Position numbers and translations under genes: made by a program. The notes below the pieces were generated by a model. It saw nothing but the letters and a program-made list of their open reading frames with translations, did not search any database and was not told where the DNA came from. Source: Polytrichum commune (lineage: Eukaryota > Streptophyta > Polytrichopsida > Polytrichales > Polytrichaceae). From it: DNA of 64,000 nucleotides. The stretch spans positions 558,001 through 622,000 of the forward strand of contig OX485804.1 in NCBI GenBank assembly GCA_950295325.1. Reading direction: 5' to 3'. This document shows, one piece after another, positions 19,795-57,783 of the stretch (positions are counted from its first letter, which is position 1; each line of letters begins with the position of its first letter).

Positions 19795-19805
19795 GCGTCA
19801 CGTTA
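19795..19805 (+). repeat. Left terminal inverted repeat of the giant MULE
   Basis: GCGTCACGTTA pairs perfectly with 56093-56103. The similarity continues imperfectly for about 20 more bases (the C7 tract followed by TCGAAC against TCAACC). GC-rich DNA with many CCGG and GGGCCC words follows to about 19965. A similar GC-rich zone lies inside the right end. Confidence 0.9.
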
Positions 19806-20437
19806 ATACCCCCCCATCGAACTTCTATCATTAGGGTTTTTTGCTACCCGACGATGGCTGCCCGGCGCTGGGTCTCGGGCCACGGATACTGGACCCGGTC
19901 TGTGGAACGGGCCCCGGAAAGTAGACCCGATATTTCACCACGGCGTCAGACCGGGCCCGATTTTGGTCCCCATAATGAAGAGTTGTAGTTATCGTCGACG
20001 ATGGACAGAAAAAAAAAGAACTTTCTTAACGGACGGAGTACTCCACAGTACGAATTCAAAAGATGCGCTCCATAGTGAAGACGGCACCGTAGTGCACTCA
20101 GATCTAATGTATTCCGTTATGTGCGGATCTGGATATTTCAAATCTGCACTACTCAATCCGCCCGGGAAGTCAAACTATGCCGGGTAACACAACCATTCTC
20201 AACTGGTGGGACGTGTCTGGTAGAACGTCCTATGTACTGCTAGAAATATATGATCTGGGTTGTTGTATTATGCACTACATCGTCGCCCTGGAAATGGTTA
20301 AATTGATGCCTAATCCAATGCATTCTTATCTCGCTGCATTGCATGTGTGCTTGAAGCTTGAGAACGATGTGAAGCTTATAATCACTTTCAGTTTTACTTA
20401 GGTGTAGTCCTTCGAAGAGTTTCACCAGATGTGAAAG

Positions 20438-23400
20438 TTGTCATGGTATTGCTCGAACGGCAGTATGGCGTTAGATAGGTCAGCCACTTTCGATTTGGAT
20501 AGTAACAGTTTTCTTAGGAACGATGCACACTGCGAATACTCGAAGGAGGATCCCGGGGTTTGCAGGGTCCGATCTGTATTGCAGCACACACAACCATCCT
20601 ATATTGATTTAACAGTCTCTGATGATTGTCTACCGAAGAAGGGCATAGGTGGTCATCATAAATCTGTACCAACATCTGCTCTTAACTACATCGACCTTGG
20701 GGATGCTAGCGATTGTCCTCCTCTTCTAGTATGTGCAGAACAGACTAGCAGTAAAAGTCTGACTTACGTAGGCATCACTTCCAATAACTCACGGTCTGTT
20801 CTACACTTAGTTTTGCCAAAGCACCCATGCGTCCGTCATAATTTGCACACTGTGCGGTCGGACTGCAGCGTCAACTGTTCAGGCCCTGGTGCGTTCTATC
20901 CTGACCGAGAAACTGCAGAAGCTCTGCGACGTACAGATGTAGTGATGAGCTTGATATCCGAAAGTAGGGGCAGCCCGCCCCCATCGAGGGTGGTTGATGG
21001 AGTACCGAACTGTGGAGATGAACAATCTCCTGATATGTCCCAGAGTTCCTGTGAACCAGCAACTGTCATGCCCTTAGTAGATTTTTGTCCTGCGAAGGCT
21101 ACCATCGGCACTACGTATGTCGACCTTACCTCTGACGGCTGGACATCAAATTATGCTTCAGTCACGGATCAAACATCAGACAGCGCAACATGTAATCATT
21201 CTGCCTCCTCTTCCTTCTCTGATGCAGTTAATGGATCCCAATGGCAGAGTAATGGGGAGGGAACTTCCTCTATTACGCAGAACAATTATGCAGGGACAAG
21301 TGATTCCAGTCGTGAGAGTGATGTTTCATCAGTTCACAGCAAGTCCAAGCCTGAGGTTAAGGGGACCAGGGCTGGGGGATGTGCACCAGATTCGAAGCCA
21401 GCGGAATCGAAGAAGGTAGGTAAGGATAGAAAACCTAGCCGGCACATTCTCTCCGAGGACTGGGAGGAGGAGGACATTCCTTACGAGGGACCTGAGCGCG
21501 AAGAGGAGCTGGTAAGGGGCCTAAGGGACATGAAGCAAACTCCTCCACCGGGTCCTTTCTCTAGAGAAGATTTAACGTGGCTCCCGATTCGTACACAAGG
21601 CGGAGGACGTCACTATATTCACGACGTCGCAGTAATCCCCTGGAGGAGACTTCAAGATTTTAGAGAAGGGGAGGGTCAAGACAAATCGTACCCCTGTCGG
21701 TTCAACAAAGAGACGGTGAAAAAGAATACACCTGGAAGTCTGGTATTCCCGAGAGCAAATAGTGCCGCAAAGGTTATCAAGTAAGTTAAGAACTGTAATT
21801 TCCATATTCACTTGATTGTTTAACGTTGTAGTGCATCCTGAAAGACTCATTTTATAGTTTATATGTTATGTTTTCATTACGTCGTGCACTTCAGGTACAA
21901 ACGTAGCGAGCTGAATAGTTTAGGGTAGGTATTGCACTACATTCAGATTTAACGTGCTTTCTCCATCTCCACTTTGTTAGGTTCACCTCCAACTTTGGAC
22001 CTGAGGACAACTCGCATATTTACATCAAAGACATGAAGGGGCTTCTCCAAGCAGAACAACAAAGGAGGCGAAAGAGAGTAAAGACAGCGTTGGAGAAGAA
22101 ACGCAAAGGTAAAAAAGTTACACCGGATTTCAATGCCATGTCTACAGACAGGATCACAGGACAAAAGAAGCCGAGGATTGGGCAAAAGGCAACAGGCATG
22201 TCGATGAAACGAGGATGTCAGCGGCATTTCCTGGCTAAGCAGAATTATATGGACACTACATTGTGCCACTTGGTGTACAAGGTTACGGAGCACGTTAATT
22301 GTCATGGCGAACAATGCCACGGACTCATGGTGGCTGGGTTCAAACATTCCATGGGAAGTTCGTTGTCCAAGAACATGAAGCAAAAGTTGGGAAGTATGTT
22401 GGACATGGGACTAACCTCCACTCAGGTGATGATCCAACACAAGGCTTTTGTGATGGAGATGGCTTTATCGAATGCCCCGGTGAGCAGGGACATGTTTGTG
22501 ATGGCTCATGACGTTCGAAACATAGCAAACAAGCGTGCAGAGGAGACCTGGATGAAGCACAAGAAGGAGACATTAAGCATCCGACTCTGGAAAGACGAAA
22601 ACATTAAGCAAGTGTTTTTTTACCAAGAGCATGGTTTGTTGGACGTGAACAAGGTAGAACAAGACGACGCCCCGTTCACTCTTGGATTCCATACAGACTG
22701 GCAGATGACAATGCTCTTGAAGTTTGGTCACCGTAGTGCAATCTCGATTGATGCCACGTTCGGCACAAGTCACTCGAGGGTAAGTTCACTACCAATTCAC
22801 TGGAATTCTTAGAGCATGACGTTGATTAAATCGGTATAGGTAACCCAACACCTGACTCTTTGTCAACAAGATAATCTAGGATCTCACACACATGTCTTAT
22901 TCGTGGCAGTACCCTCTTTACACCGTAATGGTGTTTGACGAATGGCGGAACGGTATACCTGTTGCCTATTTCATCATTTCAAGCTCCACAGAGAACGCCT
23001 TAAAACCTGTGCTGCAGGCGCTAAAAGACAAGGCCATCTCTATGAATGCAGACTGGGAACCCTCTTCCATCATAGTGGACAACGCGCAAGCCGAATTGAA
23101 CGTTCTAGAGTAAGTTCATATACATCATACAAGTTCCAGAAAACTTTTCTTGACAATATTGTATAGGGCATTATATTGATTTTAGGATCGGTTGTGACCA
23201 CTTTGCACTACAGGGAACTCTGGCCGAGATCGAAGATATTTCTTTGTTTCTGGCATGTTAAGAAGGCGTGGGCTGAGAACGCGGCAACAAAGATAAGCCG
23301 GATCGAGGATAGAGCAAACTTCTTGAAGGAGGTAGGAGATGTACTCTATGGCAAGAGGTATGTTGTTGGGACAGACCCGGTAGCATGGGCTAACAAAGAG

Positions 23401-24534
23401 CTCGACAAGATTCGCGACCGGAGGCCTTCAGCTGCCAAATTCATGAAATATATTGATAAGCATTGGCGGAAGAAGATTGGAATGTGGTGTGCAGCAAATC
23501 GAAACGTGCCTCACGCAGGACAGAACACAAATGCTGGGATTGAGTCGTTTCATGCTAATTTGAAGAGGATCCTCTTGCTTGAGAAGCAGCGGTTTGCAGG
23601 ACGTCGGTTGGATTGGTTGGCTGATGATCTGAAGAACAAGGTTACCGGTCATTACTGGTATGCTCGGGCTTTGAAGGAGTTCGGATTTGTCCGAAATATC
23701 AAGCAGGAGTTTCTCATTGCAAGTGCTATTCTCCTAGCCCATGAAATTCCGGACTCCTACGTCTACCTGAACCCAGAGGGGGAGGACATTGCACTGGTGG
23801 TTTCAGTTAACAACTACCCCAAGATTTGGACAGTGTATGGGACTAACACGGAATGGGCACAGTGTGATTGTTTTGTTGGAAAGCAGAACACAATGTGCAA
23901 GCATGTTATGAAGGTTTTTATGATGAAGCATCCAGATATTGACGAGGGCTTAATTCTACGCGAGGCTGGCAGTCGGTGTGGGATAGAGCGAACGATCCCA
24001 ATGGCGGACGCTTTTGGGTCCACCGAGCATGACAGCGACGGCAAAGACGAAGTGAAGTTCGTGTTAGCTTCCTATCCTCCAGGCAGGAGCACATCGTCCA
24101 CCTCATGTACTGCGGAGTCCAACAACAAGCCGAGCCTTGGAACGAACTTGGATCCAATTGTCTTAAGTGATAGCACAGAGCCGGTTAAAAGCCAGTATGA
24201 GGAGCATCAATGTAAAATGTGCGGAACTGAAGGTAATCCAATAATTATCGAGTCCGCATTACCCTCGCAGAACATATCGAAACAAGACGACCCTGCTGAG
24301 TTGATTAGGGATCTCTTGAGCACTGCGAGGAAACATGTCGAATTGCAGAATCACTTGGTGGCAGACTTGAAGAATATTCGCGGTAGATACAGAAAAATGA
24401 TCGCTCGTGGCATTGTGTGCAAGGAGGTCAAGGAGACGACACCCACGTTCCCTCTCAGGGAAGGGGATTGGTCGCTTAAAAGAAAGCTAGGTCGATTGGA
24501 AGTTCCTAGGGCAAATAAGCGCTGTAGAGCATAG
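20438..24534 (+). CDS. MULE transposase with SWIM zinc finger and SUMO-interacting-like motifs
   Basis: The enzyme cuts and rejoins element ends. Five exons join in phase: 20438-21780, 21895-21924, 21981-22779, 22910-23109 and 23214-24534, giving about 1,230 residues. All junctions are GT-AG. The N-terminal 450 residues are Ser-rich and contain YIDLTVSDD, NYIDLGDASDC and TYVDLTSDG, which fit SUMO-interacting motifs. An IVLSDSTE lies near the C-terminus. A Cys/His patch (NCHGEQCHG) precedes the catalytic core. The acidic residues are SIDATFG, IIVDNAQAE and NAGIESFHANLK (D, D, E). The SWIM finger is CDCFVGKQNTMCKH. The order agrees with plant MULE transposases and no stop or frameshift interrupts it, so it may be functional. 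The first Met is uncertain because an upstream non-coding exon is possible. Confidence 0.88.
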
Positions 24535-24724
24535 ACAAATCGAAATGTTAAGTGCACTACCTCAATACTCTCTAGATCTAACACTCGAACCCCAGTGCGT
24601 AGAAGACAGGAGTAACAATGTGTACTACATATATTTTATTCATCAAATGAATATCAATTTCATCCCGAGAATATCTCTTATGAAAGTCCCACTACGATTT
24701 CATGTCATGCGCTAACCATGCTGC

Positions 24725-25325: not shown

Positions 25326-27601
25326 CAAAATAAATATAATCCTCTGATGCATTCTATGGTTCATGTAGTGTAGAGCAATAATATTCTGATTGGTATTGCG
25401 TGTTGGAGAAGTACAAAGAATGTATGGTTGACATTGAATGATTATCAGTACCCACACTGTAGGAGATTTACATTCACTCATCTATGAGAACAATACCCTG
25501 TGGACCGCCGTCTACCTCCACGTTACAATGGTTTCCTTCGCTGCCTCGAACGTCACTCTTGTCTTTCACTACACATCCATCGTCCGTATCTTGATACGAT
25601 TCTCTGTCAAACCCAACCAACGATTGGCACAACGTCCTATCTACCGACCCTGTGAGCATTGCAGAGACAACAGCTCGTTTCAGATTTTGTTTCATGTCCA
25701 TCACCTCTCCCATGTCAAAAATGTCGGACATCTGCAACATAGTCAGACACTGGTAAAAAATCAATGTTAGTTGCTTCGAGATTATGGTCTTCCAACGAGC
25801 AATTAGCGGTAGAGTGACCTAAAGGCCGACTACAGCAGTAGAACACCGTGGGAAGGTACAAACCTCGCATGTCCAGTCCATGACGTCATCTCCCATTTGG
25901 AACACCATGTACATGGTGACGAAGCACATAACGTAGTATCCACACGACCATCCATCCTCCTGTTTTGGGCATCGGACGTGTATCCAGGTCCTAATATCAC
26001 TACTTTTCTCCCACATTGTTGTTCCTTCCGACTGCCCTATGGCCATGCACCATAATTTTCCGAGGCATTCATGCAATTTTGCAGAACCGTGGAAACTTAC
26101 TGACGCAGATGGTCTGGAGTCGAACTTTAAGAAGGCGTGGTCAGAGAGCACAGCTAAACTCCAGTGATTGCAGTCAACGACGGGAACCATGACGGTCCTC
26201 CCTTTCATGCGCTTAAACCCCGATTTCTTAGTATAAAACCTGTGTAGTGCAGAGGTTGACAAGGGTTTCTCGACTAGGGCACGAAGACTACATCCAACTA
26301 GGGAATTGCATAGCAGGACATCATCTGGGAGTATTGTCTGGAACCATATCGTAAAGAAATCCATGAGCGGTGTAGTGAGTAATCCGTCCTTCGAATCAAG
26401 GACTTCCATGTCTGGAGTCAGACGAAGAACCGTACTGTCCGAGTCAAATATGAACTGCATGTGGCCCCTTGCGAGATCACCACACTCCGACTTAATGCGG
26501 TCTCTCATGAGGTTGTATGCACTGCAAGACAACACGGCGTCAAACTCTAGGTAGCACAACGACTGGTTGCATGACAGTGGTGGCAGCACAAGCACGGCGG
26601 GTATATTGCAACGGCAACGCAGACGTCTTTCAGTATTACACCTACATCAAATCCATCAGCGAGGCATTTTTTTCAATAGAGCATCAATTAGGCACCTCTC
26701 AATGTACACATGGAAGGCTCTTCCCCATACTACCTACAACTTATGATTGCAGAATCCAAGGAGGATACCGACATCGCCACCGCCTTGTCTTCGGGGGGTT
26801 TACTGTCCCCCAAAGTCAGTCTTAGATGGTCATCGACTTTGTTCGCGGCGGCGAAGTCCATTGCACGAACTGGGGAGTGTAGAAGCTGTGAACTCCCAGA
26901 TTGTGACCTAAACGCTATCCGGCTCGGAGTCCGCCTGAACCACCCGGATCCAGCCCGCATAATTGGAGGCGAGGGGTTCATCATATGGTGAACGAGAAGT
27001 TGCCTCTCGTTCTCGCTGTCGTCGACCATGGGGGGTAACCTACTGTCTAAGCATAGATGGGTTTTGGCCGTTACTGCTGAAATCATTTGCAATGCCGCCT
27101 CATTCTCTGGGCCGTCCGCGGCTGCCTTGTTCTGTTCGGTGGGATCTAACACCCCCAACGGCACTACATTGGGCGGCACTACGGGTGTCCTGTCGGATGC
27201 GCATCCCTGTGGTGCAAACCCAAGTTCAGCAAAGGTCCGCTGTAGCTCTTTCTCGCGTAGCTCCAGCAATAATTGTACTACGCATCCAACGGCCTCCTTC
27301 AGTTCATCGGGAACAGGTACTTCGTTGTCCAGTCCCAACATTGACCATCCAATGTCCACGTTTTCACGAATACATAACATCTTCGACAGAACCTAAAAAA
27401 CAACAGATGAACGACAATGTAAGGATGTCCGCCCGACCTAGGTACATCCAAATCGTCACTGACCGTACAAATGAAAAGACACCCCCTCATTCATTAAACT
27501 TACCTCGTTACAGTGGGCGCGTAGTGCAGTGGGATCATCTGAACCAGTCCTCCACCACATTGCCGTTATTTCTGCCGAGTATTTCCCGCTCCGATGCAAA
27601 T

Positions 27602-27609
27602 CTACTATG
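27602..27609. repeat. 8-bp target duplication, left (CTACTATG)
   Basis: CTACTATG precedes the CTCGGG terminus and is repeated exactly at 28919-28926. Confidence 0.9.
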
Positions 27610-28918
27610 CTCGGGGGGGGGCACTCCCTTGTATATTTTGCATACACCTGTGATAATGACCTATTAAAATGGGGGCTATTTACCTATGAGAAAGGATTAT
27701 AAGGGATGCTAATTTTTGAAATAATGGTAAATTGTTGTGATTATTTGCACCGTATTGGTAATTATAAATTCTTGGATGGTTGATTTTATGGTACCCTATA
27801 TTACTTATATGTAATTTTCCCCCCTGATTGCCCCCATTCCTTAAAGTGAATGATACAGTAGAATTCTTGTTAGAAGCATGTGTACAGAGTAAGAAAAACA
27901 AACATTTACTAGGGTTTAGGGTTTAGGGTCACACTGAAGTCCGGGCAAAGCAAAACACTAAACAATTACAACAAAAGATTGCAATTACATGTCATTAAGC
28001 AACACGAGCCAACGAATAAAAGTTGTGTTGGATAACACAGTTAGAAACCTTCAGGTCTTAGGGAACAGGCCAGCCACATGTGTCTCAAAGTCACATTTAC
28101 AAGGTTTGCAGAGGCCCTACAATTGATGCCTTGATCTTCCAATCCTACACGTTGGAGGAAAATCCCACGCCATGCAAGCAAAATCCATCTAAACTAGCTA
28201 GGCTACCATTTACACATGTGGGAGATATGAGGGTACTCGAACTGAAATGACTACTACAGATTTCAAGGTATACTAATGATCATTCAGCCCTTTTTCCAAA
28301 TTATATCTCCACATGTGTGAGATAGTACAAATTTAGCAGGTTTGATTTTTTATTTGAAATGAACTCACTCAATGAGTTTGCATCTACCTCATCTAAGGTG
28401 TAGATTTTGCTAGTTGATTCATACACTAGAGACACAGTTGAGATAATAGCATCCACATCAACCCACACACAGTCACTCTCAACATACTTATATTTGTTGA
28501 GACCCGGCTGTTTTTTGAACCAATGGAGGTAAGCCATAGCAGTTGGGAAGAGCGTTTCTCTATTTCCATTATGGACTGCACATTTCATCAAGTCAATGGG
28601 TTGCCAACAATTGCCCCACTTAGTACCAACCTTCACCCTTATCTTTTGAACCCTTCCTATATAGAACATGCCATATTTTGGTGGCAAAGTATTTAATTTT
28701 TGAAACTATCGTTTTTTCTCCATGCTATTTTATATGTACCACTTAGGTAATTTAATCATGTTTTGTCAAATGCTGTATTACATATAATCATGCTTCACAA
28801 TCCCAGAGCACCCTATACTACATCTAATAATTTTACAAATTTTACGCCAAATTTTTATACAAGACCCTATATTTTATCGCACGTAGTTCCTACGTTTTTC
28901 GCCAGTGCCCCTCCCGAG
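27610..28918 (-). mobile_element. 1.3-kb DNA transposon, hAT/KDZ-like, copy 2 (nested)
   Basis: It spans 1,309 bases, has the same termini as copy 1 (CTCGGG plus G run; CCCGAG) and is in the opposite orientation. The flanking duplication is CTACTATG, different from copy 1's CTTAGGGA, so the two moved independently. Copies are near-identical over their whole length, including the short gene and a telomere-like AGGGTTTAGGG stretch. It lies inside copy A of the Ulp1-like gene, so it inserted after that gene was in place. Confidence 0.92.
28301..28687 (-). CDS. Conserved 128-residue protein of the 1.3-kb transposon, copy 2
   Basis: It has the same length and frame as 11536-11922, with about eight substitutions (for example KRAVQ to KCAVH, TFFPTT to TLFPTA). 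No stop or indel occurs in either copy, which suggests selection or recent spread. Family not recognised. Confidence 0.6.
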   Translation of the reverse strand: MPPKYGMFYIGRVQKIRVKVGTKWGNCWQPIDLMKCAVHNGNRETLFPTAMAYLHWFKKQPGLNKYKYVESDCVWVDVDAIISTVSLVYESTSKIYTLDEVDANSLSEFISNKKSNLLNLYYLTHVEI

Positions 28919-28926
28919 CTACTATG
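28919..28926. repeat. 8-bp target duplication, right (CTACTATG)
   Basis: An exact repeat of 27602-27609. On the minus strand it is CATAGTAG, within the codons for AIV of the interrupted protease gene. Confidence 0.9.
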
Positions 28927-40048: not shown

Positions 40049-40119
40049 GACCTACTTACATGCTCCATCTATGTTGACAGTTCACCCCGAACGATTGTGC
40101 ACAACCCTAAACCACGCCT

Positions 40120-40678: not shown

Positions 40679-40699
40679 TCGAACAAAGGATGCTCTATC

Positions 40700-41850: not shown

Positions 41851-41855
41851 AGAGC

Positions 41856-44280: not shown

Positions 44281-45049
44281 GATAATTCCTCAGAACAAAA
44301 TTCAGACATGAAGTATCTACAGAACTGATTGTCATAAAGATACAGCACAACTACTCAAATTCGTAAACCCTGAAGGTTATGCAACCCTCTATTCATGTCA
44401 GTTCAGATATAGATTGGTCAAACAAAATTGAAGTTCAATCGTTCATTGCAAGGAAAATATGCAACAGGTACTCACCACAATCATATTAGACCAAAAAAAT
44501 AAAGAAATGAATAAGCAATGAATTGGATCACATTCCCCTCCGAATGCAATCCGATAACCTCATCCACTAATTTCACACGCACCAGGCAAAACACAGCAAA
44601 ACCCAACACAAATAAACCAACCTCTTACTTCTACAGGCCTACCGAACACATGAAAATTCACATGAAATAGCCTACCTAATTGAAAGTGTTGTAGATTTTC
44701 ATCTGTTTGGAACTTCACGCACTTACAGATTCCTACACATCAACAACAATCTCCCCAAGCTCCAAATTTCAACTCAGCAACATTGGAGATAATACATAAC
44801 CCTAATGAAACTCTACTTCGAAGAAACACAATTAAGTCAACTCACACATTGTGTGTTTTGCCACACCACCCACAAAGGTTAACCAAAACTTTCAACCAGA
44901 AATCCATTGGAAACTCTGTGCTTCTAACTATATGATGATTCCAAACTAGTTCACAAACATGTCGAATGAGTCCAAAAAGTGGCTAAAGAAATGGAAACTT
45001 ACAGACACCATACCTACTTTAATTGATAATTGAGATAATGCAGACATAC

Positions 45050-45178
45050 CTGATGAATAGGGAGCACAAGATGCTCCATGCAAATGACGCAGTCGAGGCT
45101 ATCATGATCGAAAGCCGATGTGAAGTGCATTATTTCTTCCTAATGCCCTGCAGACCGGGCTCGCTTAATTCTCGCCAT
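45050..45178 (-). pseudogene. SINA-like RING E3 ligase N-terminal fragment (possible)
   Basis: A short exon reads SAFDHDSLDCVICMEHLVLP then IHQ and ends at donor CAG|GTATGT. C-x2-C with the following LxxPIHQ fits the start of the RING in SEVEN IN ABSENTIA-like ubiquitin ligases. A Met in another frame upstream (MARIKRARSAGH, then stop) may be a remnant of the true start. The rest of the RING and SINA domain is not found. It sits in the captured block. Confidence 0.45.
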
Positions 45179-45474
45179 TTTGCACACTGAATGTAATCCA
45201 ACATAGCTCAAAGAATTTGTTCTCAGACGTCAGTAGTTGTCCGAAAACCAATGGAAAATCTCTCCCAACTAGTGACACCAGAGCAGTACTGTCATCCCAA
45301 TGGAGTTGAAGACGATGTCATCTATTCCACGCTCAGCCCTGTGTGCTCCAAATTACGACGGACATTATGTCAACCTTTCAAAGTCGCTCACATGGAATCA
45401 GGAAATGCATTCAGCATCCTACTAGAAAAGAATAGCTCAGAGAATTAGAAACAGTACTCCCTCAACTCAAGATC

Positions 45475-45627
45475 ATAGGGAGTTCTGTTTGAGTTTGACT
45501 TTGGCTGCCACTGCCAAAGGCAACCCCAACTTTGATCTCTGGTGTGTTTGCAAAAGAATAAAGCACAAACTCCTTAGTCGCCTTGGTAGCAACAATTGAC
45601 AATGACCTCCGTGGCTCTGCCTACACC
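45475..45627 (-). pseudogene. Unidentified captured exon
   Basis: An acceptor (GGTGTAG) is followed by an open stretch reading AEPRRSLSIVATKATKEFVL and then FANTPEIKVGVAFGSG. It looks like a real exon, possibly of a plastid protein N-terminus (RRSLSIVA resembles a transit-peptide cleavage region). I could not assign the family. Confidence 0.35.
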
Positions 45628-46199
45628 AGAAAATCCGTTGTGTCAACTGCAAATTGCACACACCAAATGCCAACCAATTCTTGCACCTCCTTTCAGCCTT
45701 AGATGTTAATATTCAAATTCACATGGATACTACAGGGCTCAAAACAATTTAGGGTATGGGAGCATGTAGAAAATTTCAGCTCCATCCACGAATGCAGAGA
45801 GCACCGAAAAACACAGGTATGGGACCTCCTCTTATTCCCATTGTATTAGGGCAATTTCTCAGCATGATAAAAAACAAAACGAAAAGTAGGAAAAAAAAAG
45901 AAAAACACAAAAAAAACTTGTCTTTTCTAAGACCTTGATCCTAAAAATCTTAGAGGAAATGTTCTTATCCTAGGACACTGTGCACCTCCGCTTCCGATAT
46001 CTAATTAGCAGTTTACGACATTAATCGATCCCAACAAATTGTTTGTTTATTTTTTCTTATAAATGCGGCCTCTTGGTGTCCTCAGTCCCGTGACTTTGGA
46101 CAAAAAATTTCTTTGCCGCAACTTTTCACCTACAAAATAAACATTTAACAACAACATATGTTAAAAAAAAAAAAAATGAGCACACAATCTATAAATTAT

Positions 46200-48003
46200 C
46201 ATTAAACACACCAAAAACTACAAAAATTCGAAATACTACTATAATAAAGTATTGAGTAGTACTTACAATCTTTAAAGAATGATAAGATCTCTTCAGTCCG
46301 TGTTGTGGCTTTTTTTTGCACATTGCATTTTGCTGAGTATGACATACCAATGTTATCATAACCGTCTGAGACATTGGTACAATGGAGCACTGTGCTTGTA
46401 TAAAAAGCCATAGTTGTCTCATTCCGGGGTAAAATAAAAACACCATATTCTGGTAACAAAAACTCCCCTCCCATCTTAATATGTCCAACTCCTTCACGTT
46501 CTACAAAAAACCAAATAAAAAACATAAATAAAATATGAACACATACCAAAATACATAATATAGGAATGGAAAAAAATTAAAATTCTTTTACCTTTAACAA
46601 ACCAAGAAAGGAAGGCAAAGCCCATATCTTTCTTGTCAAGGTGTGGCTGGGCAAAATAATTTGCCGTAATGCCCAATGTTGTCAAGCCTTGGTTTCTTGT
46701 CCTTCCGACGCATAATGGTGTAAGTCCGCCAGCAAGGATGTCCTCCAACTCCCGCAAATAACTTCCAAATTGTCGGACAATTATGGGAGTTAACAGCACA
46801 TTTATCAAGTAATCACCAAAAGCTTCAACTTCAAAGCCTTTTATTTTCTGTTTTTTGAGGTCAGACCTATTTCCATGTGTGTACCTTCACATACAATAAT
46901 ACAAATGAAGGTTAAAAACACATACAAAGATATTGTAAGGAGGAATAAGAACTAAAAATGAAATATTTGCATGAAAAAAAAACTTACATGTTAAATTCAC
47001 CAGGAGCTCCAACTCTTTTGCCCAACTCCTTTCGGAAACTACACATGACTATCTTTCCACCTTTCTTCATAGGGCCCCGTTGAACAAAACCACCACAATC
47101 ATATATTCCTCTACTGATTTCTTCAATATGATGATATTCCTCAATAGGAATGTCATCAAAGACAATTATACCAGTCACAATCCTATCCTCTACTAACAAC
47201 ACAGAGTCATGAATTTGACTAAGATTTTTGACACCTGTTGCGCAATTATAAGCGAACATGTCTTTTCCTGAGAATCTAGAATTTACCCTGACATTCAAAA
47301 CTTTCCTCACACACATAGGGATAGTAATCTCTTTCCCTCGGAAATAATCAAGTGTGGCAAAACCATTTAAGGGATCATCATACTTAATAGGAAAATGATT
47401 TTTTGAAAACTCTGTTACATAAAATGTAACATTGGAATAATCCATATTGTGATCAAGATCACCATGTTCATTTGGGAGGCCCAAACCCAACAACTGCTGG
47501 CAATATTTCTTCCCCTTATTATGGACTTGCAAACCTTCGAAAGTATGTGCATAAGTGCCACACACAACGCACCAAAGCCTAGAGTCCTTGCAACACCGTG
47601 ACAAATCTGTTGTGCAAAATAACACAAAGAAAAAATTAATTCAAATGAATAAATGTTAAACTAACTATAAGAGGCTTAGTGCAAATTTCATGAATAAAAA
47701 ACAAAAATTATAAAAACAAATAATTTTCAAACATTTACCTTCTTTGGAGATTTCTTGGGATGGTCGTGAAAGCTGCAGCAAGGTAAACTCATATGGTTCC
47801 AATAGAGGAAACATATTTAGTTTTTTTAGCCTTGCAATATGTTTCGGACAACCATTGTGTCTTTCCAACAAACTCACACCTTGACAAGGCACATCACATA
47901 TATCACAGCGGAATTTCCACATATTGGGTGTGCTGCACAGAATTACAATGGTTAAATCAACATACAACGAGAAGTATTTCATGAAGGTAGAAAACAGTTT
48001 CAT
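46200..48003 (-). pseudogene. 2OG-Fe(II) oxygenase-like gene with zinc-finger N-terminus
   Basis: Several minus-strand exons are visible. Exon near 47945-47740 has FRCDICDVPCQGVSLLERHN (U1-type C2H2 finger). Exon about 47610-46990 has a second finger-like WCVVCGTYAHTFEGLQVHNK, then a 200-residue segment. Exon about 46808-46593 reads GITANYFAQPHLDKKDMGFA, then FLSWF. Exon about 46500-46275 reads GGEFLLPEYGVFILPRNETT and ends in VLHCTN. The H-x-D, GGEF and distal His order fits the double-stranded beta-helix of 2-oxoglutarate/Fe(II) dioxygenases, including nucleic-acid oxygenases of the TET/JBP and AlkB type (inference). The frames are long and no stop was seen inside exons, so this may be the least damaged captured gene. 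The true start is unknown. Confidence 0.5.
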
Positions 48004-48249
48004 AGAGGGGCCAAGTAAAAAATACCACTTGCTTTTTGAAAATATACAAATTCATTTATTTTTTATATATAATCCAAAGAAATCATTTTTTTTAGTACCT
48101 AACAACTCCTGTTCTTGCAAGGGCGGCCATGGCCACTTCGATAATATTAGTCATGTCCATAGTTTCGAAGACACAACACTGCCAAATAAACACCAAATCA
48201 TGAATATAACACACATACAAACTTCTCCAAACAAAAGATTCAAGAGAAG

Positions 48250-49420
48250 GCTTCCCTCAAAATGAATACAAAGTGTATAAATATTCTATCATATCTCACT
48301 TGTGTGTTGAGTTCACTTTTGTTTAAAAAAAAATATGGTAAACTAAGTGCACCCAAGTCACCATGGGCCTTGATATGTCGCAAACGCAACCACAAAGAAT
48401 GTGGACGTGCTATGCAATATATCAAGGAACCCCTCAGGAATAACAAGTATATAAATATCCACGGTATTCCAGAGAGGTCCATGGATATTGTGAGATTCAC
48501 TGTGTCAACACATAAATTTTCATAAACAAAAAAAATTTCAAACACATAAACAACATACAAGAAAATGGCTCAAATATTGTATAAATCTAACAACACACTT
48601 CATGTCAAAAATGATGATGTACAAAACATTCAATCACTTCAATACACATTGTGCACAAAGTGTACAAACATTCCATTATATCTCACTTGTGTGTTGAGTT
48701 CACTTTTGTTTTTAAAAAAATATGGTACACTAGGTGCACCCAAGTCACCATGGGCCTTAATATGTCGCAAACGCAACCACAAAAAATGTGGACGTGTTAT
48801 GCAATATATCAAGGAACCCCTCAGGAATAACAAGTATATAAATATCCACGGTATTCCAGAGAGATCCATGGATACTGTAAGATTCACTATGTCAACACAT
48901 AAATTTTCATAAACAAAAAAAACTCAAACACATAAACAACATACAAGAACATGGCTCAAATATTGTATAAATCTAACAACACACTTCATGTCAAAAATGA
49001 TGATGCACAAAATATTCAATCACTTCAATACACATTGTGCACAAAGTGTACAAACATTCTATCATATCTCACTTGTGTGTTGAGTTCACTTTTGTTTTAA
49101 AAGAATATGGTAAACTAGGTGCATCCAAGTCACCATAGGCCTTGATATGTTGCAAACGCAACCACAAAGAATGTGGACGTGCTGTGCAATATATCAAGGA
49201 ACCCCTCAGGAATAACAAGTATATAAATATCCACGGTATTCCAGAGAGGTCCATGGATACTATGAGATTCACTGTGTCAACACATAAATTTTCATAAAAA
49301 AAAAAACTCAAACACATAAACAACATACAAGAACATGGCTCAAATATTGTATAAATCTAACAACACACTTCATGTCAAAAATGATGATGCACAAAACATT
49401 CAATCATTTTAATACACATT
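48250..49420. repeat. Tandem repeat, three copies of about 386 bp
   Basis: The block AAGTGTA(T/C)AAA, then ATATCTCACTTGTGTGTTGA, then CCACGGTATTCCAGAGAG recurs with its anchor word at about 48269, 48655 and 49041. The copies are over 90 percent alike by eye. Frames inside are open by chance on both strands. It separates the oxygenase-like and EAF1 fragments. Confidence 0.85.
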
Positions 49421-49626
49421 GAATATTGATCCTCATTCCCAAAGCCCCAGGACTGGGAAGCACACAAGAACCAGTCATAGTGAATAAAATATGACAAATC
49501 CACACACCCACTTCACAAAATGCCAATGGGGTCCACAGCAATACATATAATAGGTAGTATGTTATAGGATTGATGTGCTGAATCACATCCCAACCAATCA
49601 AATTTGACATACGTGGTTACTAAACT

Positions 49627-50537
49627 CATACCAAAGATTTCTGTGTGCGATATTTTGTTGCAACTTGAATCAGATGTTCAAGATGTTTAAGAGTGTCCTC
49701 CTCTGGTGATATCTGAATTCTTGAAGATCTACCACTACCCTGCTACAATAAACACACTTGTTACAAAAGTGCAAACTGCAACATGTAACAACAAAGTTCA
49801 CAAAGATTTTAACAACCAGCTACATGGCCACAGTATGTATTCCAGATACAGAAATCAAGCCCCATAATGTGTAGCCATTAACTCCTAAATTGAGAAAATA
49901 TTGTCTTCCTCACAGCACATGCATATTTTTACCCTACCCCACTTTCAAAACAGTTGAAGAAAATTTATTGAGAAACAATTTGTCAATAATCATAAGTAAC
50001 ACTGTGACTTACTTTCAAACTCTCTGGCTGTGAGGAAGTCGGATCCTCTGCATTTTCTTGGCCATCTGAACCTGGTCTTTCTGTCAAAGATGTGCGTCTT
50101 TCCTTGCACTGCTCGGGTTTCTGACCGAAAAATGCAGTGTGACAGATAATTGCCTTAATACATCACTTCCCCAGGACCTACAGCCCTAAGTTGCTTGGAA
50201 TACAATTTGGTCCTAGCTAATCGTCTGCACTGGTTGGACTGTTGCAGCCTCAAACCATGGCCACTTAATAGAGTCCCAGGAGGGATGGCTGGTCCATTAC
50301 AGAACAGATTAACTCCATCAAGCATTTAGTACATTGAACAGAAATTCCTTGAGATACACTACTGTGCTTACTTTGCTCTACTCAAACGGTTGGCATGTAT
50401 GAAAGGTATGATGCTATGTCCCCAGACCTTCCAAGCAAAAACATCAAGTTGTGTACGTTGATCTGAGAACTTGAGCTGAAGACATCGCTGACCAGTTCCC
50501 AGTTTTGGCCTAAATCATTTACTAGTGCCACAATTGC
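49627..50537 (-). pseudogene. EAF1/VID21 (NuA4 chromatin complex) SANT-domain fragment
   Basis: Three exons lie in order. Exon 50537 to about 50450 reads AIVALVNDLGQNWELVSDVF, the SANT/Myb domain of plant EAF1 proteins. Exon 50120-50013 reads KPEQCKERRTSLTERPGSDG and ENAEDPTSSQPESLK, ending AAA|GTAAGT. Exon 49739 to about 49627 reads RIQISPEEDTLKHLEHLIQV. The series LVxDxGxNWELVSD, ECKxR and EEDTLK is characteristic of EAF1. The HSA domain upstream and the Gln-rich C-terminus are missing. It is a captured internal segment. Confidence 0.65.
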
Positions 50538-51212
50538 CTGCACAAGACATGAGGAACAACTCTCAACTAATTAGGTCCCCTGGTTAATTCTGTTAAAAGA
50601 ATATGCTCATGAAGAGAATCTATTCTAAAGTGCATCATGAATATCTTCAGCGTTTGAGTCTCGGGCTAGTTAGCTAAGGGGAGTTTCCATCTCATGGCTT
50701 GTAAAGGAATGCAGACGTGTATGCTGTTTGAAACTGTACACTCCTGTGTGCAATAAGGTTGCCTTCACAAATAGATTGCCTCATTACCCATACAAATTAC
50801 CTTGAGTCAGAATCAAATCACAAAAACTGTCTATCAATCCGTATGGAAACCACAGTAAAAAACATTTCACATATTTTGTTACTGAGGTAACAAATCTTCA
50901 AAAAGTATGGAATGTCAAAAAATTAGCTTGGGGCAACCTAATTGCACACATCGGTGTAGTAATTCTTACAAGTACTCATGCCTGCAAACTTGCAGCTCTA
51001 CCCTGGTAGTGAATCTTGACACCTCATCCAATTATCTCCAAGGATTGAGATTACAAGAAAATGGAGCAAACCAAGCAAGTTAAACTCAGTATTATTTCCT
51101 TCATCTTAGATGTCTTTTTACAATGTCAGAAATCAAATGAATGTCCTGCCAATGTGCACAAGATTCAAAGTGGAAATGCATGATAGATAACCACACACAA
51201 GGAGTAAATTTG

Positions 51213-52275
51213 AAGGGCTATTACCCTTATTTTGGGGTCCAACCCTTCACTTTCCCTTCAAAATATTTTGCAACCCTTCAAAAAGGAAGGGTTAATTTTC
51301 TATAAACCCTTCAAAATGAACGGAAAAAAAAAGTAACCCTTCCCTAATAGTACTTTGAGAAAAATGAGATCACTTGCTCATATCACATCTGTCACCCCTC
51401 AGTCTGACAAAATTGCAGTAGAAACTGAGAGTCTGAGAGAGTATGGCCTCACAGAGACAGGTGAAGACTCGAGAGAGTCTGGATCCTAAAGTCACGGTAA
51501 AAAAAGGCCAACAAAATGAGATTGCTTGCAGCCTTGCACCTCTCTCTCACCCAATTCTGCAAAAATCAAGTTGGATGCATAGGAGTCTCAGCGTAAGCAA
51601 GTTATAGATTTGACACTCAAGAGTCACAAAGTGGTGCTTCATTGTCAAACAGAAAAACTTGGAATCTGGAGATGACTTTCAGTACTTACGAGTGCAAAGG
51701 TAAAATGAGATCGCTTGCACCTGTCTCTCACCCAATTATGCAAAAATCAAAGTTGGGTTCATAGGAGCCTCGCTGCCTCAGCTAACTTGCAAGCTAAAGA
51801 TTCGACATTCAAGAGTCACAAAAAGTATGCTTCCTTGTAAATCAGACAAACTTGGGATCTGGAGATGACTGACTTTAGTACATTCGGGTGCAAAGATAAC
51901 AATGAGATCGCGTGCATCTCTCAAAGTCTCGGAACTAGAGCTGGATCCCGACGAAGAACTTAGATAGTAGGTTTAGATTATCATTGATGCCAATATGTTG
52001 AGAATCTTGAGATGTCATTACCATTTCAATATACTCAAACATCAATGTTTCATTAATGAAATAGTTCTATCTTTTCACCATGTGTGTTCTTTGGTCTCAC
52101 TTATATTATAGTTTTCAACATCGCTTAAATGATAAACATGATAATGTGCACTTTCAACAAAAACTTCAATACATACATGAAGGGCAATTTTTGAGGTAAC
52201 CCTTCATTTTGAAAGGGAAATTTTTGAGTTACCCTTCCCTATGAAATACAAGCAACCCTTCAAATTTATGCCCTG
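51213..52275. mobile_element. Probable nested element with AAATTTGAAGGG ends and internal tandem duplication
   Basis: The left end reads GTAAATTTGAAGGG and the right end CCCTTCAAATTTA, inverted repeats of about 13 bases. AACCCTTC/GAAGGGTT words are densely repeated next to both ends. Inside, about 51515-51710 and 51711-51905 are two diverged direct copies (ATGAGATCGCTTGCACC, TCTCTCACCCAATT, GGATCTGGAGATGACT). No clear target duplication, no coding region. The class is unknown. Confidence 0.5.
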
Positions 52276-52416
52276 ACCACACACACACACACACACATAT
52301 CTATAAGAATTCATTGATGCAAGGCTGTTCTTCACTCCTTAAGTATGACCATGACCATTGAGTTTCTTCTCGTTGACCTTACATGCATGTTAAAAACATT
52401 TAGGAATTGGACTTAC

Positions 52417-53757
52417 CCAGCAAGTCCAAACAGCAGCCTCCCCAAGTAGCTCAGGACTGTGAGAGCCCATGAGGTATCAGCCTGGTCATCAAAGTAGATA
52501 AAACAATTATTTGATCATCTCCAAACCCAATAAAGTAACTTAGAATGGAACTGCAATGCATCCAGTGAGCATAATCTATTATATTAGTCGACTACTTGTC
52601 AAACATAATTGTCATAACGTAAAAAAACCTGTTCTGTATGCCAACCAAAGACCGAGAAATATGACTCTCGTACAACTGCTGCCACTTACATCCATGCCTT
52701 TTCAATTCCTATGTAAGGAATAGGAGTGCACTGATTTCCATCCAGAACATTTATTCTAGTTTATGAAAGACTTCATTTGCAATCAATTTACAAATCCGTT
52801 CACAAACATTGTATCTAAACCTAGACATCCACTTATAGGGATATTGAATGAATACTTACTCGATTCCTGAGTTACAGATGAGGAGCATCATTGTGCATGA
52901 AACAAAGTAGGTTTGAAATATATGTGAAGTAGTACCTTCTCCCCTTGTGGATAAACCTCCTCCAAAGCTCGTTCATCCTCTTCCAAATATATCAGTTCCT
53001 GTGTATTGGCACATAGTTTGGTATATTAGTCTTTCAATCTGTGTTAATGAGGTATGTGCCACAAAAACTACATAACCTACAACACCCATAAAAATAATTG
53101 CCTTCAAATGAAGAGCTGTAGAGCTATGGAAGAAACAAAATAACCATGATTCTGAAGGGACTAATCAAAAACTGAAGAATAGGCCAGCCATAAATATAAC
53201 TCACAATAACGATTTTGTAAATATAAGAGAAAACAGTTGATACCTGCCAACAGCCTTGCAAGGGCCCACAAAAATTGTCTAAAACAATACACTACCCTAA
53301 GGGGGATGAGCTTGCACCTGCTGAACTTTATGAACATTCTTCTTCCATTTGCGGCCCTTGCCACTGGCTCGCTCTTCCCGTTGCAGAACTAATGCAGCAT
53401 CCTTGATCTCTTTAGCTCGTTTGCCCAACTCGGTAGCTTCCTGCACAATACAAAGAACCCCAGTGCTACAGGATCAATTCCAGAGACACTATCTGCTTCC
53501 TTTTCTCTAATGTTCAACTTTGTTCACATCACTATCCTCAAGTCTACTACACGCACTAATGTTTGAGATTTGCCTAAACTTGTTGAGGACCTTCTTGGTT
53601 TAGATCACCAACACACATGTCCAGAATATTAAGAAATAGTATATCTTTGTGCATATACCTTGATGTACTGAGAACGTGTAATGATGGCTTTAGGGCGTCG
53701 GAAGTATGCAAAGATGAGACTCAGAGGGAGAACAGCAATTCCAGCACCCCCAAAGAT
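52417..53757 (-). pseudogene. LIMR-family (LMBR1-like) membrane protein fragment
   Basis: Four clean exons are 53757-53659 (FGGAGIAVLPLSLIFAYFRR then PKAIITRSQYIK), 53440-53318 (EATELGKRAKEIKDAALVLQ ... GRKWKKNVHKVQQ), 52998-52936 (ELIYLEEDERALEEVYPQGE K) and 52481-52417 (ADTSWALTVLSYLGRLLFGL AG). They match the central part of plant LIMR proteins (multi-pass membrane proteins of about 500 residues): one helix, the cytosolic loop and the start of the next helix. All junctions are GT-AG and in phase. The first five helices and the C-terminal half are absent. Directly upstream on the same strand is the CtpA fragment, so the two form a chimera. Confidence 0.8.
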
Positions 53758-54007
53758 CTGCAGAATGAGCCAAAGATAGAGCAGCTATGAGAAACACCCA
53801 CTAACAGACGTTCTTTAAAGAAGGCTCGGGTTCATCGCATGGTTGAAAGTCACAAGAGTGTGGTGAGGATGAGCGGTGTTCAAGCCTTAGCCGCTTTGAG
53901 GGCGGTTGTCCCACCCATCCATCATCCATCAGAGGCAATCCCTAGACTTCAATTTCCGGGAACATAAAGAAAGAGATGAAGAAAAAGACCGAACTTTATC
54001 ATATTCA

Positions 54008-55516
54008 CAGCTCGGCGGACTTTCAAAGTGACAGAGGTGCCAGCACGTCCTCGGAGCTTGGTAGCCACTTCCTCATTATTCATGCCTGCAAATGCCACAT
54101 CTGCAGTACAACAGATGGAGTTTGTGTTGTCAGTGCAGTACATCAGATATTGCCAAAATCCATCACCTTTTACGCAAACATAGACAATGCACATTACAAT
54201 TGGTAGTAAAATTGCTTACTGACTCACAACAAGACAACCCATTACACTAAATGCCATTCTTATGTGGTACAACAAACGCAACCCTGTCTCATTTTGTGAC
54301 TGCATGAAAAGTTCAAAGAGTTGATGAAGCTTACTGTCAATTTGCACCAATTCATCACCAGACAATATTCATGCTCGCTGAGCAGGACCACCCTCTATTG
54401 GAGAAAGCACTACCTGCAAGGCCATGGTTATAGTCAGAAATTCAGATGACAATTCATGAAGCACCTTTTGGGGCAAACATAAACCCATGAAGCACTCCCT
54501 CAACTGGGAGTGTTCAGCTCCTCGGACCAAAATCTCACCCACAAGCTCGTGATGAACAGGACAATAAGAAAGATGGAGCCACTTACCAAGCGCCCAGAGT
54601 CCCGATCTGAAGCAATAAGCAAACCCACTCCTTCTAGAGCACCTTCATTGTTGATCCGAAAGTTTGCATATTCCTACAGAGATACACATACTAAATTAGA
54701 TCTACTTTCCCACACATCAACCAAGATGATCTCGCTCTCTTGTAGAGCACCTTCATTGTTCATCCGAAAGCTTGCATATTCCTACAGAGATACACATACT
54801 AAATTAGATCTACTTTCCCACACATCAGCCAAGATGATCTCGCTCTCTTGTAGAGCACCTTCATTGTTCATCCGAAAGCTTGCATATTCCTACAGAGATA
54901 CACATACTAAATTAGATCTACTTTCCCACACATCAGCCAAGATGATCTCGCTCTCTTGTAGAGCACCTTCATTGTTCATCCGAAAGCTTGCATATTCCTA
55001 TAGAGATACACATACTAAATTAGATCTACTTTCCCACACATCAGCCAAGATGATCACGCTCTCTTGTAGGCATAGAGACGCATGAAATAAATTACCAAAC
55101 AATATCCTTACCTGAGGACTAACAATTCGAGTTAAGGGATCCCCTAAAGTGGCAAGCATACTGCGAATCTTGCCATATGCATCTTCTGAGGTTTTTACGC
55201 TCAAAGTCTCGCCCAGGACTTCTTGTAGCTTCAGATCCCAATCTGGCGACAACAAATGTATCAAGAGCAAGTACAAGACAAATACACCACTCTTGAAATT
55301 TGTCCCACATGAAGACTTGACAAGCAATCACTTGAGCAGCTCGCAAAGAAAACTTGACCCCAAGGTTGGTTCTTCTGCAAGCACAATCTTCCAAGACACA
55401 GAATGGATCGCCAAAGCAGGAGGAAATGAGATACCTTGATTATTGAAGGTGGGATCTACGTAGGTCTCCCGAACAATTCCCCAAGCCTCGACCAAAGTTC
55501 GCTGCACAGCATTCAC
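54008..55516 (-). pseudogene. Chloroplast C-terminal processing protease (CtpA-type) fragment, PDZ part only
   Basis: CtpA cleaves the D1 precursor of photosystem II in the thylakoid lumen. The exons are 55516-55435 (VNAVQRTLVEAWGIVRETYV), 55242-55112 (DWDLKLQEVLGETLSVKTSE), 54673-54587 (EYANFRINNEGALEGVGLLI), 54413-54335 (VVLSPIEGGPAQRA, then stop, then ILSGDELVQID) and 54100 to about 54008 (GMNNEEVATKLRGRAGTSVT). A TGA at 54369-54371 replaces the Gly codon expected in the PDZ domain. The Ser/Lys catalytic domain is missing. The exon 55112/54673 junction region is expanded by tandem repeats (54636-55070). It is clearly non-functional. Confidence 0.82.
54636..55070. repeat. 108-bp tandem repeat duplicating an exon-intron junction, four units
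   Basis: Each unit holds CCTTCATTGTTCATCCGAAA, then GCTTGCATATTCCTACAGAG, then AAATTAGATCTACTTTCCC. On the minus strand this is an intron end plus the first codons of the CtpA exon (YANFR/YASFRMNNEGAL). The unit nearest the exon has diverged most. The 36-codon period keeps the opposite strand open, creating a spurious repetitive frame. Confidence 0.9.
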
Positions 55517-55739
55517 CTGCATGAAAAAGCATCCTTCAAACCCTTTGCAAGCAATAACCTCTGACCCATGGGGTTTTGCCACACACAACTTGAGCTCAAG
55601 CTCAAGCTTGCAAGGTTGGTGGGGCAAGGTAAAAGAGAATTCAAGCCCTTACATTTGCCTAGGACAGCGTAGACACTTTGCTCATCCTCGTCGTAATAGG
55701 CATCAATTACCTCACACTTCTCTCCATCAATGCACTCGC

Positions 55740-55880
55740 TGCATCAAGACCTAACTGCATCAATGCACTACGCAAAACACTCAACTACGGCAACACAGCT
55801 AGGAAACTAGGGCAACACAACGCAGCACACGAAGAAAGGTGCAGTCTTCTACATCCACTCCGGACCGGGGCACAACCCTA
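55740..55880. repeat. Second copy of the copy B upstream block
   Basis: ACTACGGCAACACAGCTAGG, GGGCAACACAACGCAGCACA, CGAAGAAAGGTGCAGT and CACTCCGGACC are in the same order as at 40190-40370. It lies between the captured genes and the right end of the giant element, so the captured block is bracketed by direct repeats. Confidence 0.8.
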
Positions 55881-55889
55881 ACTGCAGGA

Positions 55890-56092
55890 CAAGTAAAGAC
55901 ACGACAAGAAAAGACACGACCTATGCCGGGTCCGGAGGCCTTATCGCGGGCAGGGACGCGGCAATGGGACGGGTGGGCCCCGCACGGGGGTCGGGGGGTT
56001 TTGGAACCCGTTCCACCCTCCAAACCCATATTTTCGCGGGCAAGGGGAGATTGCCCGACGGCGCTCTATTTAGGGGTTGAAGGGGGGGTCTG
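55890..56092. other. GC-rich subterminal zone of the giant MULE, right end
   Basis: Rich in CpG, with runs such as GGGCCCCGCACGGGGGTCGGG. The composition is like the zone just inside the left end (19860-19965). Subterminal GC-rich repeats are common in plant DNA transposons and may bind the transposase. No gene. Confidence 0.6.
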
Positions 56093-56103
56093 TAACGTGA
56101 CGC
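56093..56103 (-). repeat. Right terminal inverted repeat of the giant MULE
   Basis: TAACGTGACGC is the exact reverse complement of 19795-19805. Confidence 0.9.
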
Positions 56104-57769: not shown

Positions 57770-57783
57770 CTTCTGGTCAATGT

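Follow-up and report, generated by a model that had tools for sequence, protein, structure and literature searches.

Small elements that have lost their transposase, the Pack-MULEs reportedly introduced by Jiang and colleagues in 2004, are the best-known case of gene capture among Mutator-like elements (MULEs); here we describe a transposase-bearing MULE that carries a mosaic of 15 kb. Published accounts give target-site duplications of 8–11 bp as a MULE trait and terminal inverted repeats (TIRs) of hundreds of base pairs as common in the group (PMC6446971), and they state that the 2004 set of Pack-MULEs contained none above 7 kb, most being 1–2 kb (PMC6431247). The present element has the transposase domain, 9-bp duplication and TIRs of a MULE, but its TIRs are short (11 bp). 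As in Pack-MULEs as portrayed in PMC6431247, Mutator-type ends and 9-bp duplications surround genomic fragments from several loci that were joined at the DNA level; unlike Pack-MULEs, which are small and non-autonomous, it has a putative transposase with open catalytic exons 2–4, and its cargo of about 15 kb is, for a natural cut-and-paste element, far above the sizes given for the first of them. The other close relatives are MULEs with Ulp1-like genes, namely the KI-MULEs and VANDAL elements with KIU or VANC of Arabidopsis, and elements in melon, rice and grape (PMC13317346, PMC2528002, PMC5735166). These elements share with ours a MULE transposase, an oppositely oriented gene that is Ulp1-like (in ours on weak scores) and tandem repeats in non-coding parts (the likeness to VANC and KIU being judged on the Ulp1 part), but ours has a pair of diverged C2H2-Ulp1-like paralogues together with a large mosaic cargo, and it has short perfect TIRs of 11 bp, whereas KI-MULE and VANDAL-KIU elements are non-TIR MULEs. 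The element works like a Pack-MULE that has kept its transposase, on a KI- or VANDAL-like body, and among the titles and abstract openings surveyed there was no MULE this large that pairs a transposase of its own with a mosaic cargo. Helitrons have neither target-site duplications nor TIRs, and the 36-kb element possesses both. Helitrons, Polintons and Terminons, as described in PMC6431247, resemble it in large size, accessory genes and captured pieces, and differ from it in that here there are a cut-and-paste MULE transposase, TIRs and a target-site duplication.

The element occupies positions 19795–56103 of the window, by which we mean the whole stretch of 64,000 nucleotides analysed (free of N letters). 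The perfect termini and exact 9-base duplication of the preliminary description are confirmed by direct reading: the left TIR, GCGTCACGTTA (19795..19805, + strand; similarity extends more weakly to about 35 bp), has its perfect inverse at 56093..56103 (− strand; 11/11 matching), and the 9-bp duplication ATGGGTGAT stands outside them at 19786..19794 and 56104..56112. Chance coincidences of these 20 bases (11-bp ends plus 9-bp duplication) are expected about 0.002 times over the position pairs of the 64-kb window. The element lies in another repeat, with a left part at 14888..19794 (which may extend further, as the fetched sister stretch ends there) and a right part at 56113..61141 (which may also extend further, and has a frame for a DUF7869 protein at 57769–59847). 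This repeat is colinear with its sister stretch over some 10 kb at 98% (122 mismatches in 9,813, or 1.24%), and by comparison with its uninterrupted copies 19795–56103 is one insertion of 36,309 bp. A search for empty sites with a single ATGGGTGAT, as had been suggested earlier, was positive: a query of 383 bases, made of both flanks joined with one ATGGGTGAT, crosses the junction in at least 10 places (40 of 94 candidates scored), nine of which run the full 383 bases, with identities of 100% in two, 98–99% in six and 92% in one. These sites are the strongest support for what had been proposed overall, a single MULE-type unit of 36 kb in which two Ulp1-like genes are combined with foreign pieces totalling about 15 kb.

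Three sister copies with both ends were found, 17.1, 19.8 and 35.9 kb long. Their TIRs match at 8 of 11 positions, and their 9-bp duplications, GTGCAATTG, GTTTTTGTG and TTTTTGTAG, are exact and all different, so that (including the present element) 4/4 copies found with both ends have an exact duplication. Because related ends recur with different exact duplications in the sisters, the ends are real transposon ends. The stretch 40359–55803 is missing from all three. The preliminary description had set shorter pairings of these ends in related copies against its own reading of a single unit; such pairings do exist, at 17.1 and 19.8 kb, and show that the family body does not include the cargo, but the unit itself stands, since the ends, duplication and empty site of this copy agree.

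The predicted MULE-type transposase, also claimed earlier, is borne out by a match to PF10551 (E=1.6e-18; 67.4 bits against a cut-off of 27.6) across three + strand exons with inferred introns: 21919..22779 (5′ boundary approximate), with the first catalytic Asp region, SIDATFGT; 22910..23109, with the second, IIVDNAQAE; and 23214..24534, which completes the catalytic domain and has a SWIM-like CxC..CxH finger, legible in its spacing and below the cut-off for PF04434 (E=0.13). An upstream open frame without a Pfam match (20435..21784, + strand) is a putative exon 1, putatively joined. Exons 2–4 contain no stops, against 1, 2, 3 and 3 in sister copies A, B, C and F, and are jointly open in this copy alone among the five compared (exon 4 proper is stop-free in A and F too). 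Per site, these exons have changed more at synonymous than at non-synonymous positions (p=3.8e-11, vs A) and show purifying selection, although here and below the tests compare related sisters and the comparisons are not independent.

Oriented opposite to the transposase are two long genes with inferred exon joining. Gene 1 (25819..31650, − strand) comprises a C2H2-like N-terminal part, a middle part and an Ulp1-like C-terminal part (25819–26646), and contains a nested high-copy transposon of 1.3 kb (27610..28918) with an 8-bp duplication, CTACTATG; its paralogue, gene 2 (35329..39778, − strand), ends in an Ulp1-like part at 35329–36096. From motifs and weak scores, these parts look like Ulp1 domains forming the C-terminal ends of two old paralogous genes of C2H2 type. 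The earlier claim of two Ulp1-like genes holds in that there are two paralogues, both with a legible His-Asp-Gln-Cys pattern (which we take to be that of Ulp1), and that a profile of five family members gives weak matches to Ulp1-type structures (E 0.0056 and 0.009); it falls short in that both frames score under the Pfam cut-off (16.9 and 17.8 vs 20.7 bits). A structure model of the Ulp1 part (mean pLDDT 40) was too poor for fold comparison. Synonymous change again exceeds non-synonymous change per site, for Ulp1a (p=2.4e-4, vs A) and for Ulp1b (p=3.3e-5, vs E; 0.001, vs F), and the Ulp1 parts thereby show apparent purifying selection; gene 2 is only weakly constrained in its N-terminal part (p=0.032).

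The right subterminal repeat array is in two parts, at 40086..40358 and 55804..55866, the second having a 41-bp unit in common with 40318–40358, and between them lies the cargo (40359–55803; 15.4 kb), of which 14,824 of 15,445 bases (96%) map to other places: to nine different donor loci, to a region X of low copy number and to a nested transposon. (The donor searches, with 40 of 4,622 and 40 of 954 candidates scored, give donors, not copy numbers.) The first piece (40363..43137) corresponds to C5:39594226-39596994 and is followed by a piece of an acetolactate synthase gene (43133..44273, − strand; C1:15444713-15445853) that includes the non-coding stretch between exons. Four short pieces (44270..45566) come from C7:19.97 (or C6:8.75 or C1:7.44), C1:61.07, C1:46.81 and C1:17.35 Mb, the first three having more than one near-equal copy each, and a second part of the C5:39.59 Mb locus (45570..46039) leads to region X (46038..48603, − strand), with zinc-finger-like open frames whose Pfam scores are below cut-off. 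A tandem triplication of 387 bp with diverged copies (48268..49421) crosses the junction of X with a piece from C7:10.505 Mb (49372..50967). There follow a first part of a CtpA-like gene locus at C7:40.396 Mb (50962..51061, − strand), a piece from C1:39.949 Mb (51057..53822) enclosing the nested high-copy transposon (about 51198–52285), and a piece from the CtpA-like protease gene (53930..55664, − strand; also C7:40.396 Mb), in which a 108-bp unit has expanded about fourfold. The other cargo frames scanned with Pfam, a minority of the short ones included, yielded no additional gene names. What had been called some 15 kb of host gene pieces is indeed a foreign mosaic from at least nine loci, but only two pieces can be named as genes and some are multi-copy. 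Region X is otherwise found only at C1:71.696 and C7:37.875 Mb, in both cases adjoining relics of the element's own family (1.4 and 2.4 kb away, respectively).

Eleven direct junctions between pieces could be read from BLAST alignments: there is an overlap of 2–10 bp in eight (with one or two mismatches in four of these), one is flush, and two have 3–4 nt of filler. At least two letters are shared exactly in 7/9 filler-free junctions (counted by eye), against 0.16 expected per junction if base use is equal (p=6e-5).

Leaving out region X, the cargo differs from its donors at 229/10,201 positions (2.24%; about 1–4% for pieces against their best donors), more than the 1.24% of the invaded repeat (p=3.6e-8). 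As the mismatch of cargo with donors is above that of the invaded repeat with its sister, most of the cargo is probably older than the last jump, an argument from divergence that is weaker if the true donors are other haplotypes or lost copies. Taken singly, 8/17 aligned pieces exceed the invaded repeat at p<0.05 (five after Bonferroni correction), and two are no more diverged than it (acetolactate synthase, 0.79%; C1:46.8, 0.97%). An inner block of 2.4 kb (43133–45566; 30/2,452, or 1.22%; p=0.56 vs the invaded repeat) could, on these figures, have entered after the jump, while the cargo without X and this block stands at 199/7,749, or 2.57% (p=6.4e-11). Transitions make up 85/122 changes in the invaded repeat, 130/229 in the cargo without X and 247/403 with it, so that faster cytosine decay is disfavoured as the cause of cargo divergence.

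We think it likely that this is a short-TIR Mutator-like DNA transposon whose cargo was built into its array before the 36.3-kb unit moved whole. A family body of roughly 17–23 kb would have encoded the transposase and the two C2H2-Ulp1-like proteins, and genomic DNA amounting to about 15 kb would have entered the right subterminal array in several steps in this lineage, as pieces copied at the DNA level from at least nine loci and joined at short shared sequences, perhaps through the repair of breaks inside the tandem array, with template switching. A MULE transposase, presumably the family's own, would then have inserted the entire unit, with most of its cargo aboard, into a young copy of another repeat, giving rise to the 9-bp duplication. 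The Ulp1-like proteins may aid the element through deSUMOylation or anti-silencing.

A history in which a cargo-free element of about 21 kb landed here and only later, on the spot, acquired a cargo that never moved as a unit would account for the three both-ended sisters without cargo at this point and for the agreement of the inner block with the invaded repeat (1.22% vs 1.24%). We regard it as quite unlikely in view of the clearly greater divergence of the remaining cargo, the lower transition share noted above, which speaks against faster cytosine decay, and the occurrence of region X elsewhere only beside relics of this family. The same relics bear on a variant of assembly before the jump, not exclusive of it, which we consider possible although doubtful: a body element minus its right end may have fused to a Pack-MULE-like copy next to it, which contributed X and a complete right end; all of this would then have been moved by the outer ends, and further captures would have followed. 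Subterminal array sequence does flank the cargo on both sides, and the orders at the relics (array, 1.4 kb, region X at C1:71.69 Mb; region X, 2.4 kb, array and right end at C7:37.88 Mb) can be read in this sense, but a small element in its own right, with X and both ends, was not found, and the order of events has to be reconstructed from relics that are both truncated.

That the cargo is a separate element (a Helitron or Pack-type transposon) nested in the array might be suggested by the 41-bp repeat at its borders and by its composition, multi-locus mosaics being typical of Helitrons; the 41-bp unit, however, belongs to the family's own tandem array, and no pair of transposon ends was noticed in the sequence read at the cargo edges, making this improbable. 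An artefact that joined unrelated contigs within 40–56 kb would, like any chimeric join, bring together pieces from several chromosomes, but it seems extremely improbable, given an N-free window, pieces that are about 1–4% off their best donors rather than identical, a triplicated unit with diverged copies across one junction, two relics elsewhere that back the association of X with the family, and the agreement of ends, duplication and empty site.

Within the preferred history of assembly followed by movement, a more specific mechanism may be imagined, which we rate as speculative and on balance rather unlikely: the right subterminal tandem array would be a docking site at which genomic pieces accumulate stepwise, and the two C2H2-Ulp1 proteins, at least one of which would bind the array, would prevent silencing or aid repair and thereby leave units of 36 kb still able to move. 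Were it true, the element would be a plant counterpart, independently reached, of giant cargo transposons in other kingdoms. With junctions, relics and donors all preserved, the order and mechanism of capture are directly testable in one genome.

The search for further family members with a 254-bp right-end query (6/6 candidates scored) was more informative than that with 534 bp, dominated by a repeat (40 of 197 scored); the family-body search (36 of 1,313 scored, the element's own copy being absent from the matches) is no census. These searches did not find this cargo in any other copy that has both ends. For copy D (C7:37879161) a left end with its duplication, GAAATGTAG, was sought and none was found on C7, the two forward matches with one mismatch (on C1 and C3) comparing with one in the control. 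Copy F has a left end, and no right end within the 20 kb read; copy E has a right end only, with a partial family transposase about 47 kb upstream. The longest paired sister, B (35.9 kb), was considered as a second copy of the cargo and rejected: no cargo match was found in it, and most of its extra length is a Ty3-type retrotransposon of 12.6 kb, with LTRs of 2,840 bp that are 99.9% identical.

The 36,309-bp Mutator-like element (MULE) at window 19795-56103 is one clean insertion. Its terminal inverted repeat GCGTCACGTTA starts at 19795, the perfect inverse ends at 56103, and the target-site duplication ATGGGTGAT lies on either side, all read directly; over the position pairs of the 64-kb window, only about 0.002 chance 20-base coincidences of this sort are expected. 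The uninterrupted sites with one duplication that the preliminary description had proposed seeking do exist: when the flanks were joined through a single duplication, at least 10 places matched across the junction (40 of 94 candidates scored), nine of these 10 covering the full 383 bases, two with 100% identity. Of this pair of sisters (uninterrupted copies of the repeat surrounding the element), one is colinear across window 14888-19794 and 56113-61141 at c. 98%, with one short break. Because the flanks match sisters at empty sites, the unit landed in a young repeat copy, and on sequence comparison it inserted only after that copy and its sisters had diverged (122 mismatches in 9,813 aligned bases, 1.24%, against the first; 85 in 7,154 against the second). 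The invaded repeat, which encodes a DUF7869 protein (PF25273, E=1.8e-44), is young, multi-copy and at least c. 10 kb long.

A search of the genome (408 Mb in 64 contigs; the window is C2:558001-622000) for further copies, likewise proposed at the outset, gave five left ends and six right ends (5/5 and 6/6 candidates scored). Three copies besides ours (C2, 36,309 bp) have both ends: A (C1, 17,058 bp), B (C1, 35,867 bp) and C (C6, 19,811 bp). The left end of copy F and the right ends of D and E are unpaired. The 9-bp duplications are exact in all four both-ended copies, and each is different. Identity among A, B, C and F is c. 95-98% in long colinear blocks, and ours matches A, B and C at 83-93% (long blocks, gaps counted). 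Copy B is long mainly because it contains a 12.6-kb Ty3-type retrotransposon (LTRs 99.9% alike), minus which it is c. 23 kb. The middle of B and F has a shared stretch with additional frames (in B, of 285 and 260 aa) to which nothing in ours corresponds; both copies also contain 350-bp tandem arrays in either orientation, and this material is possibly other cargo. Beyond the six close copies there is a large clade of MULE transposase relatives at 38-59% identity, and among the 93 scored of 475 candidates the frames are often open.

When three transposase exons are spliced at predicted GT-AG introns, the resulting open frame encodes a MULE domain (PF10551, E=1.6e-18), together with a SWIM-like finger that scores below the cut-off. 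Among five copies compared, exons 2-4 contain no stops in ours, one in A, two in B, and three each in C (which also has a frameshift) and F. On the opposite strand lie two paralogous C2H2-Ulp1-like genes, for which exon joining is predicted (identity 34% in the N-terminal part, 47% in the middle and 40% in the Ulp1-like part). Gene 1 is interrupted by a nested 1.3-kb transposon (27610-28918; 8-bp duplication CTACTATG), found in at least 34 other places at 97-98%. The transposase and the Ulp1-like parts are constrained: synonymous versus non-synonymous changes per site were 0.108 versus 0.030 for transposase exons 2-4 (ours vs A, p=3.8e-11), 0.096 versus 0.025 for the Ulp1-like part of gene 1 (ours vs A, p=2.4e-4), and, for that of gene 2, 0.131 versus 0.037 (ours vs E, p=3.3e-5) and 0.118 versus 0.044 (ours vs F, p=0.001). 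The middle parts of both genes (ours vs B, p=2.6e-5 and 1.5e-6) and the N-terminal part of gene 1 (ours vs A, p=9.7e-5) are also constrained, that of gene 2 weakly so (ours vs B, 0.117 versus 0.080, p=0.032). These eight pairs, related copies whose tests are not independent, were chosen from a larger table in which all computable dN/dS values are below 1 (0.15-0.71).

In A, B, C, D and the right part of E the sequence is continuous across the point 40358/55804, and the cargo that ours has there, 15,445 bp, is absent. The cargo is a mosaic, 14,824 bp (96%) of it mapping elsewhere, to places spread over three chromosomes (C1, C5 and C7). It begins with the first part of a piece from C5:39.59 Mb, inside which lie, in order, pieces from C1:15.44 (part of acetolactate synthase, with two recognisable domains; the donor place has more of the gene), C7:19.97 (or two near-equals), C1:61.07, C1:46.81 and C1:17.35; the second part of C5:39.59 Mb, region X, C7:10.51 and C7:40.40 follow, the last a CtpA-like protease gene (S41 and PDZ matches at the donor, PDZ just under the cut-off) enclosing a C1:39.95 piece in which a high-copy transposon is nested. 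For several of the short pieces, near-equal copies elsewhere make the exact donor ambiguous. In BLAST alignments, the 11 direct junctions (excluding the nested transposon, a single alternative donor row and the two junctions where 107 and 139 bases are unmapped) show overlaps of 2-10 bp in eight cases (four with mismatches), a flush join in one and 3-4 nt of filler in two. At least two exactly shared letters occur at seven of the nine filler-free junctions (expectation 0.16 per junction assuming equal base use, p=6e-5). Once joined, the pieces seem to have undergone break repair repeatedly: a 387-bp triplication crosses the X/C7:10.5 junction, and the cargo has an about fourfold expansion of a 108-bp unit that is single in its donor.

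Region X (46040-48300) has just two other places in the genome at E<=1e-10 (3/3 candidates scored, itself included), both truncated relics: at C1:71.696 Mb it lies 1.4 kb after a stretch resembling window 38991-40358 plus array, and at C7:37.875 Mb a right end follows it after 2.4 kb. Most simply, the lineage already had X between two array copies, brought there perhaps by capture, perhaps by the joining of two elements. The relics, one of which has a frameshift, partly preserve the open frames of X, which may either belong to the element as a gene or have been captured.

The repeat copy was there before the unit entered it, so pieces that predate this copy should have travelled in with the unit, assuming that the true donors are the present ones or sequences no more distant. 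Mismatch exceeds the 1.24% of the invaded repeat in 15 of 17 aligned cargo pieces, eight of them at p<0.05 singly and five after Bonferroni correction. Pooled cargo-donor mismatch is 403/12,469 (3.23%, p=7.8e-24 versus the repeat), and 229/10,201 (2.24%, p=3.6e-8) with X set aside because its partners are relics, not donors. Without X and the inner block (43133-45566) it is 199/7,749 (2.57%, p=6.4e-11); the inner block alone, at 30/2,452 (1.22%, p=0.56), yields no timing from mismatch. These counts take only the longest alignment of each piece and omit an inverted-repeat stretch (40521-40679), tandem units (48604-49371 and 54741-55069), the nested transposon and the gaps that did not map. Transitions make up 85/122 of changes in the repeat and 130/229 in the cargo without X, so the higher cargo mismatch is not accounted for by cytosine decay.

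The family's own transposase would have moved the element, perhaps with the C2H2-Ulp1-like proteins as helpers, and the pieces may have been captured by break repair and template switching in the tandem array. There are parallels, though not tests of this mechanism, in KI-MULEs, described as having a Ulp1 domain likewise opposite to the transposase (PMC2528002), and in VANDAL elements, whose VANC proteins are reported to bind short motifs forming tandem repeats in non-coding parts (PMC5735166), as our element has tandem repeats in such parts. Pack-MULEs, none of those first described exceeding 7 kb according to a review (PMC6431247), and Pack-TYPE elements are characterized as non-autonomous elements that have lost their transposase gene (PMC6446971; PMC8903248). 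Our element works like a Pack-MULE, but the presence of its transposase gene sets it apart from that class: it is a MULE that bears a transposase and also carries cargo. No equal was apparent from titles or abstract openings in the literature searched, which lay mostly outside subscription journals.

Elsewhere in the window, tandem 47-48-bp repeats (6941-7116, 7749-7923 and 57128-57253) have in common a palindrome-like motif around CACGGGTGAACACCCGTGGG. Three long minus-strand frames at 2016-6679 (558, 372 and 475 aa), with no Pfam match at E<=1, possibly belong to another large transposon, and frame 526-1350 contains an NLI-interacting-factor phosphatase domain (PF03031, E=1.6e-10).
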